Source: Pyrococcus yayanosii CH1
GTDB lineage: Archaea; Methanobacteriota_B; Thermococci; Thermococcales; Thermococcaceae
Assembly: GCF_000215995.1 (NCBI RefSeq)
Contig: NC_015680.1
Span: 992,001-1,056,000 of the forward strand
Direction of reading: 5' to 3'
Length of the DNA stretch: 64,000 bases
Shown: positions 6,491-28,325 of the stretch, one piece after another
Layout: each line of letters begins with the position of its first letter
How positions within the stretch are numbered: position 1 is the stretch's first letter
Translations under genes and position numbers: made by a program
The notes under the pieces: model-generated
Told to the model about the DNA's origin: nothing
What the model saw: only the letters and a program-made list of their open reading frames with translations
Database searches by the model: none

Positions 6491-6504
6491 TTCTTTTCTT
6501 TTTC
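6491..6504 (+). terminator. T-rich tract after mbhN
   Basis: The tract TTCTTTTCTTTTTC begins two bases after the mbhN stop. Archaeal termination commonly occurs at U-rich runs. The tract overlaps the 3' end of the antisense guide RNA described next. Confidence 0.55.
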
Positions 6505-6554
6505 AGCCAACCGGTCCTCATCACTGCTCAGGCCAGGGAGTTCTCATCATCGCC
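6499..6554 (-). ncRNA. C/D box 2'-O-methylation guide sRNA
   Basis: Read on the minus strand, the region has a complete archaeal C/D box layout: C box ATGATGA (6550-6544), guide GAACTCCCTGGC (12 nt), D' box CTGA (6531-6528), spacer GCA, C' box GTGATGA (6524-6518), guide GGACCGGTTGG (11 nt), D box CTGA (6506-6503). Spacings are those of Thermococcales sRNAs. A TATA sequence (TTTTTAAA at 6573-6580, readable on both strands) lies about 25 bases before the C box and also serves the plus-strand gene at 6602. By the N+5 rule the D guide would methylate the fifth base of CCAACCGGTCC and the D' guide the fifth base of GCCAGGGAGTTC. I could not assign the target RNA. Confidence 0.85.
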
Positions 6555-24790: not shown

Positions 24791-24892
24791 GTGGGAATAA
24801 TGGCCATTTACATGAGCACCTTCACGATAGAGCGAGTGATGCTGGAGCTCTACGGAAACGAAAAGGACGATTTTGTTGAGGTGCTGAGGTGA
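24791..24892 (+). CDS. Candidate 33-residue ORF between gatD and gatE
   Basis: A GTG start at 24791 is preceded at 5 bases by GGTGA, which overlaps the gatD stop. The frame runs 33 codons ([20 protein letters not shown], then [13 protein letters not shown]) and ends in CTGAGGTGA, whose GGTGAT is the ribosome binding site of gatE. Placement is as expected for a translationally coupled small gene. The product would be amphipathic with an acidic tail. I know of no family. It could also be a coupling leader for gatE. Confidence 0.45.
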
Positions 24893-24897
24893 TTTCC

Positions 24898-26787
24898 ATG
24901 GGGGAGAAGTTTGATTACGAGAAGCTCGGGCTTAAGGTCGGCCTCGAGATTCACAGACAGCTCGACACGAAGAAGCTCTTCTCGCCCGTTCCGAGTGAGC
25001 TCAATGATAAGGTCGACTTCACCTTCCAGAGGAGGCTTAGGCCGACGATGAGCGAGCTCGGCGAGATCGACCCAGCCGCCTTAGAGGAGTTCAAGAAGGG
25101 TAGAGTTTACGTCTACGAGGGCAACTACGAGCTGACGGACCTCGTTTATATGGACGAGGAGCCGCCGCACATGCCCGACGAGGAGGCCCTCCGCGTTGCC
25201 CTCCAGATAGCCTACCTCCTAAATGCGACGCCCGTTGACGAGGTTCACTTCATGCGTAAAATAGTTATTGACGGCTCCAACGTTTCGGGCTTCCAGAGGA
25301 CGGCGATAATAGCGACGGATGGAAAGGTGGAGACGCCCTGGGGGACGGTGGGCATTCCAACTATCTGTCTCGAAGAGGACGCCTGCAGGATAGTCGAGAG
25401 GAAAGATAAAGAGGTTATCTACCGCATAGACAGGCTTGGAATCCCCCTCATCGAGATAAGCACGACTCCGAACATACACCATCCGGAGCAAGCAAAAGTT
25501 GTTGCCAAGTTCATAGGCGACGCCTTAAGGGCAACAAGAAAAGTTAAGAGGGGCCTCGGAACCATAAGGCAGGACCTCAACATCTCCATCGAGGGCGGTG
25601 CGAGGGTAGAGATTAAGGGCGTTCAAGAGCTCGACATGATTCCCCTTATAATCGAGCGGGAGGTCGAGAGGCAACTCAACCTTCTCGAGATAAGGGACGA
25701 GCTGAGGAGGAGGGGCGTTAAACCTGAGGACATAAGGGAGGAGTTCTACGACGTCACCGACATATTCCAGAACACCGGTTCTAAGATAATAGCACGGGCC
25801 ATAAAGAAGGGAGGCCGTGTCCTCGCGATAAAGCTCCCCAAGTTCAGGGGACTAATAGGGAGGGAGATCCAGCCCGGAAGGAGGCTAGGTACGGAGTTCG
25901 CGGACAGGGCCAAGAAGTACGTGCCCGGAATATTCCACATAGACGAGCTCCCCAACTACGGGATAAGTCAGGAGGAGGTAAACGCCGTCATCGAGAGGCT
26001 CGGCCTCGGCGAGGAGGATGCCTTCGTGCTTGTCGCTGCTGAAGAGGAAACCGCCAAGAGGGCCCTCCGTGAGGTCATCAAGAGGGCGAGGGAAGCCATA
26101 GAAGGTGTCCCCGAAGAGACGAGGAGAGCCCTGCCGGACGGGAATACCCAGTACATGCGCCCCCTCCCCGGAAAGGCGAGGATGTATCCTGAAACGGACA
26201 TACCACCCATTCCACTGAGCGACGAGCTGAAGGAGGAGATAAGGGCCAATCTTCCAGAGCTCCCGCAGGCAAGGGTTGAACGCTACGTGAAGGAGTTCAA
26301 GCTTGACAGGAGCATGGCCCAGACGCTCGTGGACGACGAGAGAGATGAGCTCTTCGAGACCCTTGTGGAAATGGGCGTCAAGCCATCGTTGGCCGCTTCA
26401 GTACTCGTGGTCGTCCTCAAGGGGCTCAGGAAGGAGGTGCCCATTGAGAATATCACTGACGAGCACATAAAGGAGGCCTTCAGGCTGTTCCTTGAGGGCA
26501 AGATAGCGAAGGAGGCCTTCGAGGAGATATTCAAGGAGCTTGCCCTTCACCCGGAGAAGAGTCCAAAGCAGATCGCCGAGGAGAAGGGACTAACATTGCT
26601 CAGCGAGGAGGAAGTGGAGAGGATAGTAGACGAGGTCATCCAGCAGAACATCGAAGTCGTGAGGGAAAAGGGCATGGGAGCGATGGGCCTCATAATGGGC
26701 CGCGCCATGGCCAAGCTTAGAGGCAGAGCCGACGGAAAGCTCGTAAGCCAGATAGTCAGGAGGAAGCTCCAAGAGCTCTCTTCTTAG
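24898..26787 (+). CDS. gatE: Glutamyl-tRNA(Gln) amidotransferase subunit E
   Basis: A 629-residue archaeal GatE. It begins [20 protein letters not shown] and contains the GatB/GatE kinase-amidotransferase core ([25 protein letters not shown]), an inserted AspRS-like region, and a helical YqeY-like tail. With GatD it converts Glu-tRNA(Gln) to Gln-tRNA(Gln). The ATG at 24898 follows GAGGTGAT; a GTG at 24889 is too close to that site. Confidence 0.96.
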
Positions 26788-26837: not shown

Positions 26838-26890
26838 AAGCTCAGCCAGCTCACCCTCTCATCACCGATCAGAGGGGTAGGCCTCATCAT
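26838..26890 (-). ncRNA. C/D box guide sRNA (second of a tandem pair)
   Basis: On the minus strand: C box ATGATGA (26890-26884), guide GGCCTACCCCT (11 nt), D' box CTGA (26872-26869), spacer TCG, C' box GTGATGA (26865-26859), guide GAGGGTGAGCTGG (13 nt), D box CTGA (26845-26842). All four boxes match consensus. N+5 targets would be the fifth base of AGGGGTAGGCC and of CCAGCTCACCCTC. The target RNAs were not identified. Confidence 0.87.
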
Positions 26891-26892
26891 GG

Positions 26893-26944
26893 TCAGATAC
26901 CCTGGGCTTCTTCACCGCTCCGCTCTAGCGAACCTCATCATCCC
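26893..26944 (-). ncRNA. C/D box guide sRNA (first of a tandem pair, degenerate internal boxes)
   Basis: On the minus strand: C box ATGATGA (26941-26935), guide GGTTCGCTAGAG (12 nt), D' box CGGA (26922-26919, one mismatch), spacer GCG, C' box GTGAAGA (26915-26909, one mismatch), guide AGCCCAGGGTAT (12 nt), D box CTGA (26896-26893). Internal boxes of archaeal sRNAs are often degenerate. Only two bases separate this D box from the C box of the next sRNA. A TATA sequence (CTTATAAAAGG, minus strand 26973-26963) predicts a transcript start at about 26943, just before the first C box. Confidence 0.65.
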
Positions 26945-26962
26945 GACCTAATACTCCTCCAG

Positions 26963-26973
26963 CCTTTTATAAG
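26963..26973 (-). promoter_or_regulatory. TATA box of the tandem sRNA transcript
   Basis: CTTATAAAAGG on the minus strand lies about 25 bases before the first C box. It reads also as CCTTTTATAAG on the plus strand, but the plus-strand transporter gene has its own better placed TATA at 26989-26997. Confidence 0.5.
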
Positions 26974-27050: not shown

Positions 27051-28325
27051 ATGGGCATTTTAAAGAAGTATTTAGAGTATCCGGTGCTCCAAAAGATACT
27101 TATAGGGCTGATAGTAGGAGCAGTCTTCGGTCTCGTAATGGGCCACTACGGCCACGCCGACGCCGTCAAGACATACATTAAGCCCTTCGGAGACCTCTTT
27201 GTCAGACTTCTGAAGATGCTCGTCATGCCCATAGTCTTCGCATCACTGGTCGTCGGTGCGGCCAGCATCAGCCCGGCTAGGCTCGGGAGGGTTGGCGCCA
27301 AGATAGTCGTCTACTACCTACTGACGTCAGCTTTCGCCGTGACGCTAGGAATCGTGATGGCCAGGGTTTTCAATCCCGGTGCAAACCTCAAGCTCGTCGT
27401 TGAGGGCGCCAAGTTCGAACCCAAGCAGGCCCCACCACTCGTCGAGACCCTCCTCAATATAGTCCCGACGAACCCCTTCAACGCCCTCGCCAACGGTCAG
27501 GTCCTGCCCACGATATTCTTCGCGATAGTGCTGGGAATAGCGCTCAGCTACCTCATGAACAGTAAGGATGAGAGGATTAAGAACAGTGCCACGACCCTCT
27601 ACAGGGCCATAGATGGCCTCGCCGAGGCCGTCTATAAGATCGTTGCTGGAGTCATGCAGTACGCTCCCATCGGTGTCTTTGCCCTCATCGCGTACGTCAT
27701 GGCAAGCTATGGGGTTAAGGTAATCGGTGACCTCGCCAAGGTTACCACCGCAGTTTACGTTGGCCTCATTCTTCAGATAGTCCTTGTCTACATGGTGCTA
27801 CTCAAAATCTTTGGCATCGACCCGATTAAGTTCTTGGCCAAGGCCAAGGATGCCATGCTCACGGCCTTCGTCACGAGGAGCTCCAGCGGAACCCTGCCAG
27901 TCACCATGAGGGTCGCCGATGATATGGGCATATCCAAGGGCATATACTCCTTCACCCTGCCCCTCGGCGCCACGATAAATATGGATGGAACGGCCCTATA
28001 CCAAGGTGTCACGACCTTCTTCATAGCCAATGCCATTGGAGTCGGCCTCTCCATCAGCCAGCAACTCACCATAGTGCTGACGGCCGTGCTGGCCTCGATA
28101 GGAACGGCTGGCGTGCCCGGCGCTGGAGCCATAATGCTTGCCATGGTTCTTGAGAGCGTTGGCCTGCCACTCACCAACCCAAGTGTCGCCGCCGCCTACG
28201 CCATGATATTGGGCATCGACGCAATCCTCGACATGGGTAGGACGATGGTCAACGTTACCGGCGACCTTACCGGAACCGCCATAGTGGCCAAGACGGAGGG
28301 TGAGCTCGACACTGGGAGGCTCTGA
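27051..28325 (+). CDS. gltP: Sodium-coupled glutamate/aspartate transporter (GltPh-like)
   Basis: A 424-residue transporter of the dicarboxylate/amino acid:cation symporter family, very similar as I recall to GltPh of P. horikoshii, an aspartate transporter. It begins [19 protein letters not shown]. The family signatures are the HP1 serine loop ([11 protein letters not shown]), the TM7 motif NMDGTA, the HP2 loop ([11 protein letters not shown]) and the TM8 segment [12 protein letters not shown], whose Asp and Arg bind substrate. It has eight transmembrane helices plus two hairpins and acts as a trimer in the membrane. Confidence 0.96.

Follow-up and report, generated by a model that had tools for sequence, protein, structure and literature searches.

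Two guide RNA units between gatE and a symporter gene

We analysed a 64,000-nt stretch of the Pyrococcus yayanosii CH1 genome (NC_015680.1, positions 992,001 to 1,056,000), hereafter the window, whose positions are used below unless stated otherwise. Between gatE and a sodium:dicarboxylate symporter gene, direct reading of the minus strand gives a TATA box (TTATAAAA), 23 nt, a first C/D box sRNA unit (u1), the dinucleotide CC and a second unit (u2) (Table 1). The preliminary description of this DNA had claimed two C/D box guide RNAs in tandem, 2 nt apart, on one predicted transcript, with guides of 12, 12, 11 and 13 nt and four consensus boxes in the second unit; sequence, conservation and targets agree with the tandem, the guide lengths are correct and the u2 boxes are all canonical. 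The TATA box described at 26973-26963 is also present, but its exact span is 26972-26965. Both units have the sizes of archaeal C/D box sRNAs (guides of about 12 nt, spacers of about 3 nt), the D'-C' spacer being 3 nt in each. All four boxes of u2 are canonical, and u1 has canonical C and D boxes and one coupled substitution in each of its D' and C' boxes.

Table 1. Features of the locus (window coordinates).
Feature	Position	Strand	Basis or remark
gatE (Glu-tRNA(Gln) amidotransferase subunit E)	24889..26787	+	convergent neighbour; Pfam GatB_N, GAD, GatB_Yqey; syntenic in relatives
C/D box sRNA u2	26842..26890	-	sequence, scan, orthologs in seven congeners; 23S target C1230 and weaker G1189 or alternative G1588
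u2 C box ATGATGA	26890-26884	-	sequence
u2 D' guide, 11 nt	26883-26873	-	sequence
u2 D' box CTGA	26872-26869	-	sequence; then spacer TCG
u2 C' box GTGATGA	26865-26859	-	sequence
u2 D guide, 13 nt	26858-26846	-	sequence
u2 D box CTGA	26845-26842	-	sequence
Junction CC, 2 nt	26891..26892	-	alignment with relatives and stem analysis
C/D box sRNA u1	26893..26941	-	sequence, scan, orthologs in eight congeners; 23S targets A2495 and C2546
u1 C box ATGATGA	26941-26935	-	sequence
u1 D' guide, 12 nt	26934-26923	-	sequence
u1 D' box CGGA	26922-26919	-	sequence; then spacer GCG
u1 C' box GTGAAGA	26915-26909	-	sequence
u1 D guide, 12 nt	26908-26897	-	sequence
u1 D box CTGA	26896-26893	-	sequence
TATA box TTATAAAA	26965..26972	-	31 nt 5' of u1 C box; sequence and spacing common at C/D units
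Sodium:dicarboxylate symporter gene	27051..28325	+	divergent neighbour; Pfam SDF; promoter and leader conserved with relatives

The units belong to a distinct population of C/D box sRNAs

We scanned the whole P. yayanosii CH1 genome (complete, 1,716,818 bp) for C/D units. The strict scan found 34 units, 15 of them with four perfect boxes, compared with no perfect unit in three second-order Markov genomes; the relaxed scan gave 41 matches, corresponding to 38 distinct units, and none in the reversed genome. Both u1 and u2 are members of this well-separated population. They also match archaeal C/D families in Rfam, with scores below the gathering threshold, so that neither fits a family there. 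The folding energy of the 110-nt RNA was no better than that of shuffled sequence (z about 0) and is therefore uninformative either way. That the boxes arose by chance, or form an L7Ae-binding regulatory element and not a guide RNA, is highly improbable. L7Ae k-turn elements are reported from archaeal mRNA leaders (PMC6298567), but here there are eight boxes at the correct spacing, a quality reached nowhere in the shuffled or reversed controls, the guides are conserved with paired rRNA targets, and the strand downstream runs into gatE in antisense and not into a gene leader.

A TATA-like motif lies 24-36 nt 5' of the C box in 12 of the 38 units, compared with 1.8% of random positions, and the distance of the u1 TATA box (-31) is the usual one among the genome's C/D units. 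From the position of this box, transcription is predicted to start at about 26942-26944, 1-3 nt 5' of the u1 C box, so that one promoter would start the transcript at u1's own 5' end. We also looked for a TATA-like motif 5' of u2 and found none, only u1 having one; the two units are probably co-transcribed from a single promoter. As to protein partners, the genome encodes adjacent Nop5 and fibrillarin genes (identified by Pfam), an RNA ligase gene and an L7Ae gene, the last recognised by motif and sequence only.

Both units match pairs of nearby sites in 23S rRNA

Taking the target as the fifth nucleotide upstream of D or D' (N+5 rule), we found that the D' guide of u1 forms 10 Watson-Crick pairs with 23S A2495 (E. 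coli A2388) and its D guide nine with C2546 (E. coli U2441). These targets are 51 nt apart in 23S, a combination given by 0/1500 shuffled guide pairs. The D guide of u2 forms 10 Watson-Crick pairs with C1230 (E. coli C1100), and its D' guide has a weaker site at G1189 (E. coli 1059), 41 nt from C1230, which is the usual double-guide geometry (2/1500 shuffled guide pairs); in the relatives, the u2 D' guide matches G1189 over 10 positions (one G.U), and none of 1500 shuffled pairs equalled this together with C1230. A T to C change in the u2 D' guide, present in P. yayanosii and in the congeneric genomes G002 and G005, creates a mismatch at N+3 of the G1189 site and improves the match at G1588, which is a perfect 9-bp match in P. 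yayanosii. The u2 D' target thus appears ambiguous, and may be either G1189 or G1588. The comparison of the guides with rRNA that had been proposed earlier therefore gives an unambiguous 23S match over 9-10 bp for three of the four guides (u1 D', u1 D and u2 D), whose pairings all cover N+5. We compared eight 23S sequences and found no difference among them in any of the target sequences. E. coli numbers are from an alignment of which only the P. yayanosii-to-E. coli mapping was used, the relatives being partly misoriented in it; conservation was checked separately.

On this basis, each unit would guide the 2'-O-methylation of two nearby 23S nucleotides, those of u1 lying in domain V (E. coli 2388, 2441) and those of u2 around the base of the GTPase-centre stalk (E. 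coli 1100, plus 1059 or another site). With their boxes and spacing, two guides per unit, two nearby rRNA targets and the 3-nt D'-C' spacer, both resemble the known archaeal C/D box sRNAs (Rfam sR families; snoPyro_CD, RF00095), from which they differ in abutting with 2 nt between them and in the 3b.3n pair of the u1 internal module. A C/D unit can also be scored from the middle half-units (26915-26869); we set this reading aside, as its best guide sites (C2546 versus G1189/G1588) are far apart in 23S.

The altered internal boxes of u1 form a coupled change

In u1, position 2 of the D' box is changed from U to G and position 5 of the C' box from U to A. We take these two positions to face each other as 3n and 3b in the C/D k-turn; the 3b.3n pair of the u1 internal module is A.G instead of U.U. 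Among the 76 C/D and C'/D' modules of the genome, all 16 with a changed D position 2 also have a changed C position 5, and C position 5 is changed alone in only three (Fisher p = 9e-14 for the coupling across the 76 modules). Since 3b.3n changes are coupled genome-wide, the paired change is usual here and does not imply the decay of u1. The one-mismatch internal boxes that the preliminary description had passed over as common do exist, but they represent a coupled 3b.3n change and not generic decay. A G at 3n or a C at 3b (not both) allows k-turn folding with metal ions alone, and Kt-7 itself carries A.G (PMC4382518). By analogy, we infer that the u1 internal module might fold without L7Ae.

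These results bear on whether u2 alone matures, u1 having been decaying since its internal boxes changed. In accord with such a decay, P. yayanosii alone among the nine members of the genus lacks canonical D' and C' boxes in u1. However, the u1 changes are paired at 3b.3n, as in 15 other modules of the genome, a G at 3n is reported to permit k-turn folding (PMC4382518), neither u1 guide has lost its target match, and the core of the D guide is nearly invariant among relatives, so we consider the decay of u1 quite unlikely. A lack of conservation of the first unit's boxes in relatives had been suggested as an argument against the pair; in all eight relatives, they read CTGA (D') and TGATGA (C'), and this objection fails.

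The pair is conserved in the genus and has probably lost its spacer in P. yayanosii

Each of the eight other genus members has a u1 ortholog and seven have a u2 ortholog, which is truncated in one of them; in G007, u1 was found and u2 was not. A comparison of the locus in related genomes, recommended in the preliminary description, confirms that both units are conserved in the genus, either 39-75 nt apart (counted from the sequences: 40 nt in G003, G006 and G008, 39 nt in G004 and 75 nt in G005) or at separate loci (G001 and G002). The order gatE > u1 > u2 > symporter, in one direction throughout, is found in four relatives (G004, G005, G006 and G008), with additional sequence after gatE in G004; in G003, gatE > u1 > u2 is kept and the symporter was not found nearby. 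The P. yayanosii pair is flanked by the same gatE and symporter genes, yet in the opposite orientation, and the promoter and leader of its symporter gene still resemble those of G006. The inversion may not be unique to P. yayanosii, as u1 is also divergent from the symporter in G002 and G007.

The u1-u2 spacer of the relatives is T-rich and contains T-tracts, which are of the kind used by archaeal terminators; it is missing in P. yayanosii. When aligned with the relatives, in which the u1 D box and the two bases after it read CTGACC or CTGACT, the CC junction corresponds to the native 3' flank of u1, and the GG, AG or TG that usually precedes the u2 C box is gone. Since the 3' flank of u1 is kept and the 5' dinucleotide of u2 is not, the abutting pair would most simply have arisen by loss of the spacer.

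Other observations concern the individual units. Two further genera (g3 and g5) have a u1-like unit with the same D' guide and a different D guide. In G007 and G001, the u1 ortholog is closely followed on its own strand by a tRNA-like sequence, a possible dicistronic sRNA-tRNA arrangement. The u2 ortholog of G003 is cut in the D guide, its D half being replaced by other sequence, which leaves only the D' guide. Matches to the u2 D guide core in other genera were discarded as apparent protein-coding sequence, four of them lying in one shared coding context.

A potentially shared junction nucleotide and the proposed maturation of the two units

We examined the terminal stems in the k-turn register in which the nucleotide before the C box lies in the bulge and stem I starts with -2 pairing +1 after the D box, a register in which many of the genome's other units have 3-6 stem pairs. 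In this register, u1 has two possible terminal pairs (26943 with 26892 and 26944 with 26891) and u2 one (26892 with 26841). C26892, the first nucleotide after the u1 D box, is claimed by stem I of both units, and this demand on a single nucleotide by both terminal k-turns is what would set the junction apart. It had been stated that so close a junction leaves no room for ordinary terminal stems. The stems are indeed short, but this is not special to the junction: the stand-alone orthologs of u1 and u2 could form no more than 0-3 stem pairs (by-eye count in the same register), N. equitans sRNA ends are unpaired, and M. kandleri C/D sRNAs have no terminal stem or one that is too short. In the u1 and u2 families, a weak terminal stem is the normal state. 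In T. kodakarensis, circularisation goes with at least three terminal stem pairs, and 16 of 17 non-circular C/D sRNAs have at most two (PMC9014305). With 2 bp in u1 and 1 bp in u2, both units are therefore predicted to be linear or joined.

Archaeal C/D genes occur in clusters of two or three, and most archaeal C/D sRNAs are without a promoter of their own and are thought to be trimmed to what the particle protects; the exposed ends of precursors are trimmed, and maturation depends on the boxes and not on the flanks, which can be changed without its loss (PMC7994747). We consider it probable (about 0.7) that the locus encodes two ordinary archaeal C/D guides on a dicistronic transcript and that they are matured from this one precursor; on this reading, a pair already present in the genus, as two separable units with a T-rich spacer, was inverted in place and lost the spacer. 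The k-turns of the precursor would be bound by L7Ae, Nop5 and fibrillarin would be recruited in turn, and nucleases trimming the RNA around the assembled particles would separate u1 from u2. If both units had mature ends of their own, the flanks between them would have to be longer than the junction. With 2 nt between them and at most CC to share after a cut, probably not both units of a transcript get a full terminal k-turn; both guides would be made from the transcript pool, perhaps not both from each molecule.

Alternatively, the transcript is left uncut, as a single RNA of ~105 nt in one four-guide particle, either with D(u1)/C(u2) acting like an internal k-loop or as two particles back to back. 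The 2-nt junction lies within the range of the genome's D'-C' spacers (mostly 3 nt, and 2 nt in the unit at 1628627), u1 and u2 offer just the two and one stem pairs given above, T. kodakarensis units with at most two possible terminal pairs are mostly not circularised (PMC9014305), and the T-rich spacer of the relatives is gone. However, a k-loop at the junction implies that C(u1) pairs with D(u2), a combination that allows no stem; the u1 and u2 target pairs lie ~1300 nt apart in 23S, and the units are separate or at other loci in relatives, so the guides do not need to be joined in order to function. A four-guide particle made of both units is possible, though nothing observed favours it, and we rate the uncut transcript as unlikely, though less so than the decay of u1.

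It is conceivable, though unlikely, that the pair either stays joined as a four-guide particle or has terminal k-turns that compete for C26892, so that each transcript yields u1 or u2. If such competition takes place, the locus itself would impose a choice of whether domain V or the GTPase-centre region of 23S rRNA is methylated. The origin of archaeal C/D sRNA ends is poorly understood, and a 2-nt junction here, as against separate guides in close relatives, offers a natural experiment: such a pair would show if neighbouring particles need flanks, if the formation of one k-turn prevents that of its neighbour and if several guides linked in one particle can work.

Comparison with other clustered guide RNAs

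In 513 archaeal genomes, a pattern with a D box 0-6 nt before a complete unit gave 12 matches, an undercount, as the downstream unit must have canonical C, D' and C' boxes and the spacer must be exactly 3 nt. The upstream CTGA belongs to no unit in 10 of the 12, and both true cases are in the P. yayanosii genome. The second abutting pair, with a 5-nt junction, lies outside the window (genome positions 820063-820249, minus strand), in an array of three C/D or C/D-like units, arranged as A, 34 nt, B, 5 nt, C. Orthologs of the three are at scattered loci in the genus's other genomes; unit B is C/D-like and has an unusual D box in relatives. Guide gene compaction may therefore be a trait of the P. 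yayanosii genome. A three-C-box pattern for tandem arrays was dropped, as it mostly matched D boxes overlapping TGATGA.

The pair may be a variant of clustered C/D sRNA genes (PMC7994747), with which it shares co-directional units, probably on one transcript and matured by trimming around particles; the difference lies in a u1-u2 junction so short that a single nucleotide would be common to both terminal k-turns. An equally short published junction may exist; a literature search of incomplete coverage found no mention of P. yayanosii C/D sRNAs. The tRNA-C/D sRNA dicistrons of Nanoarchaeum equitans (PMC3491384) likewise produce a C/D sRNA from a compact dicistronic precursor, but there tRNA 3' processing makes the 5' end, whereas u1 and u2 have no adjacent tRNA. 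The likeness to TIGR-Tas arrays (PMC12045711) is superficial and lies in tandem short guide RNA units; in contrast to those, the present locus has no more than two units, both of them ordinary C/D sRNAs whose guides match rRNA.

Two further loci were noted. In genus g5, a tandem of two C/D-like units with ~8 nt between them is conserved in several genomes, and its upstream sequence resembles that of the 820-kb locus of P. yayanosii. Within the window, a further C/D box sRNA lies at 6500-6553 on the minus strand and scores above the Rfam gathering threshold for snoPyro_CD.
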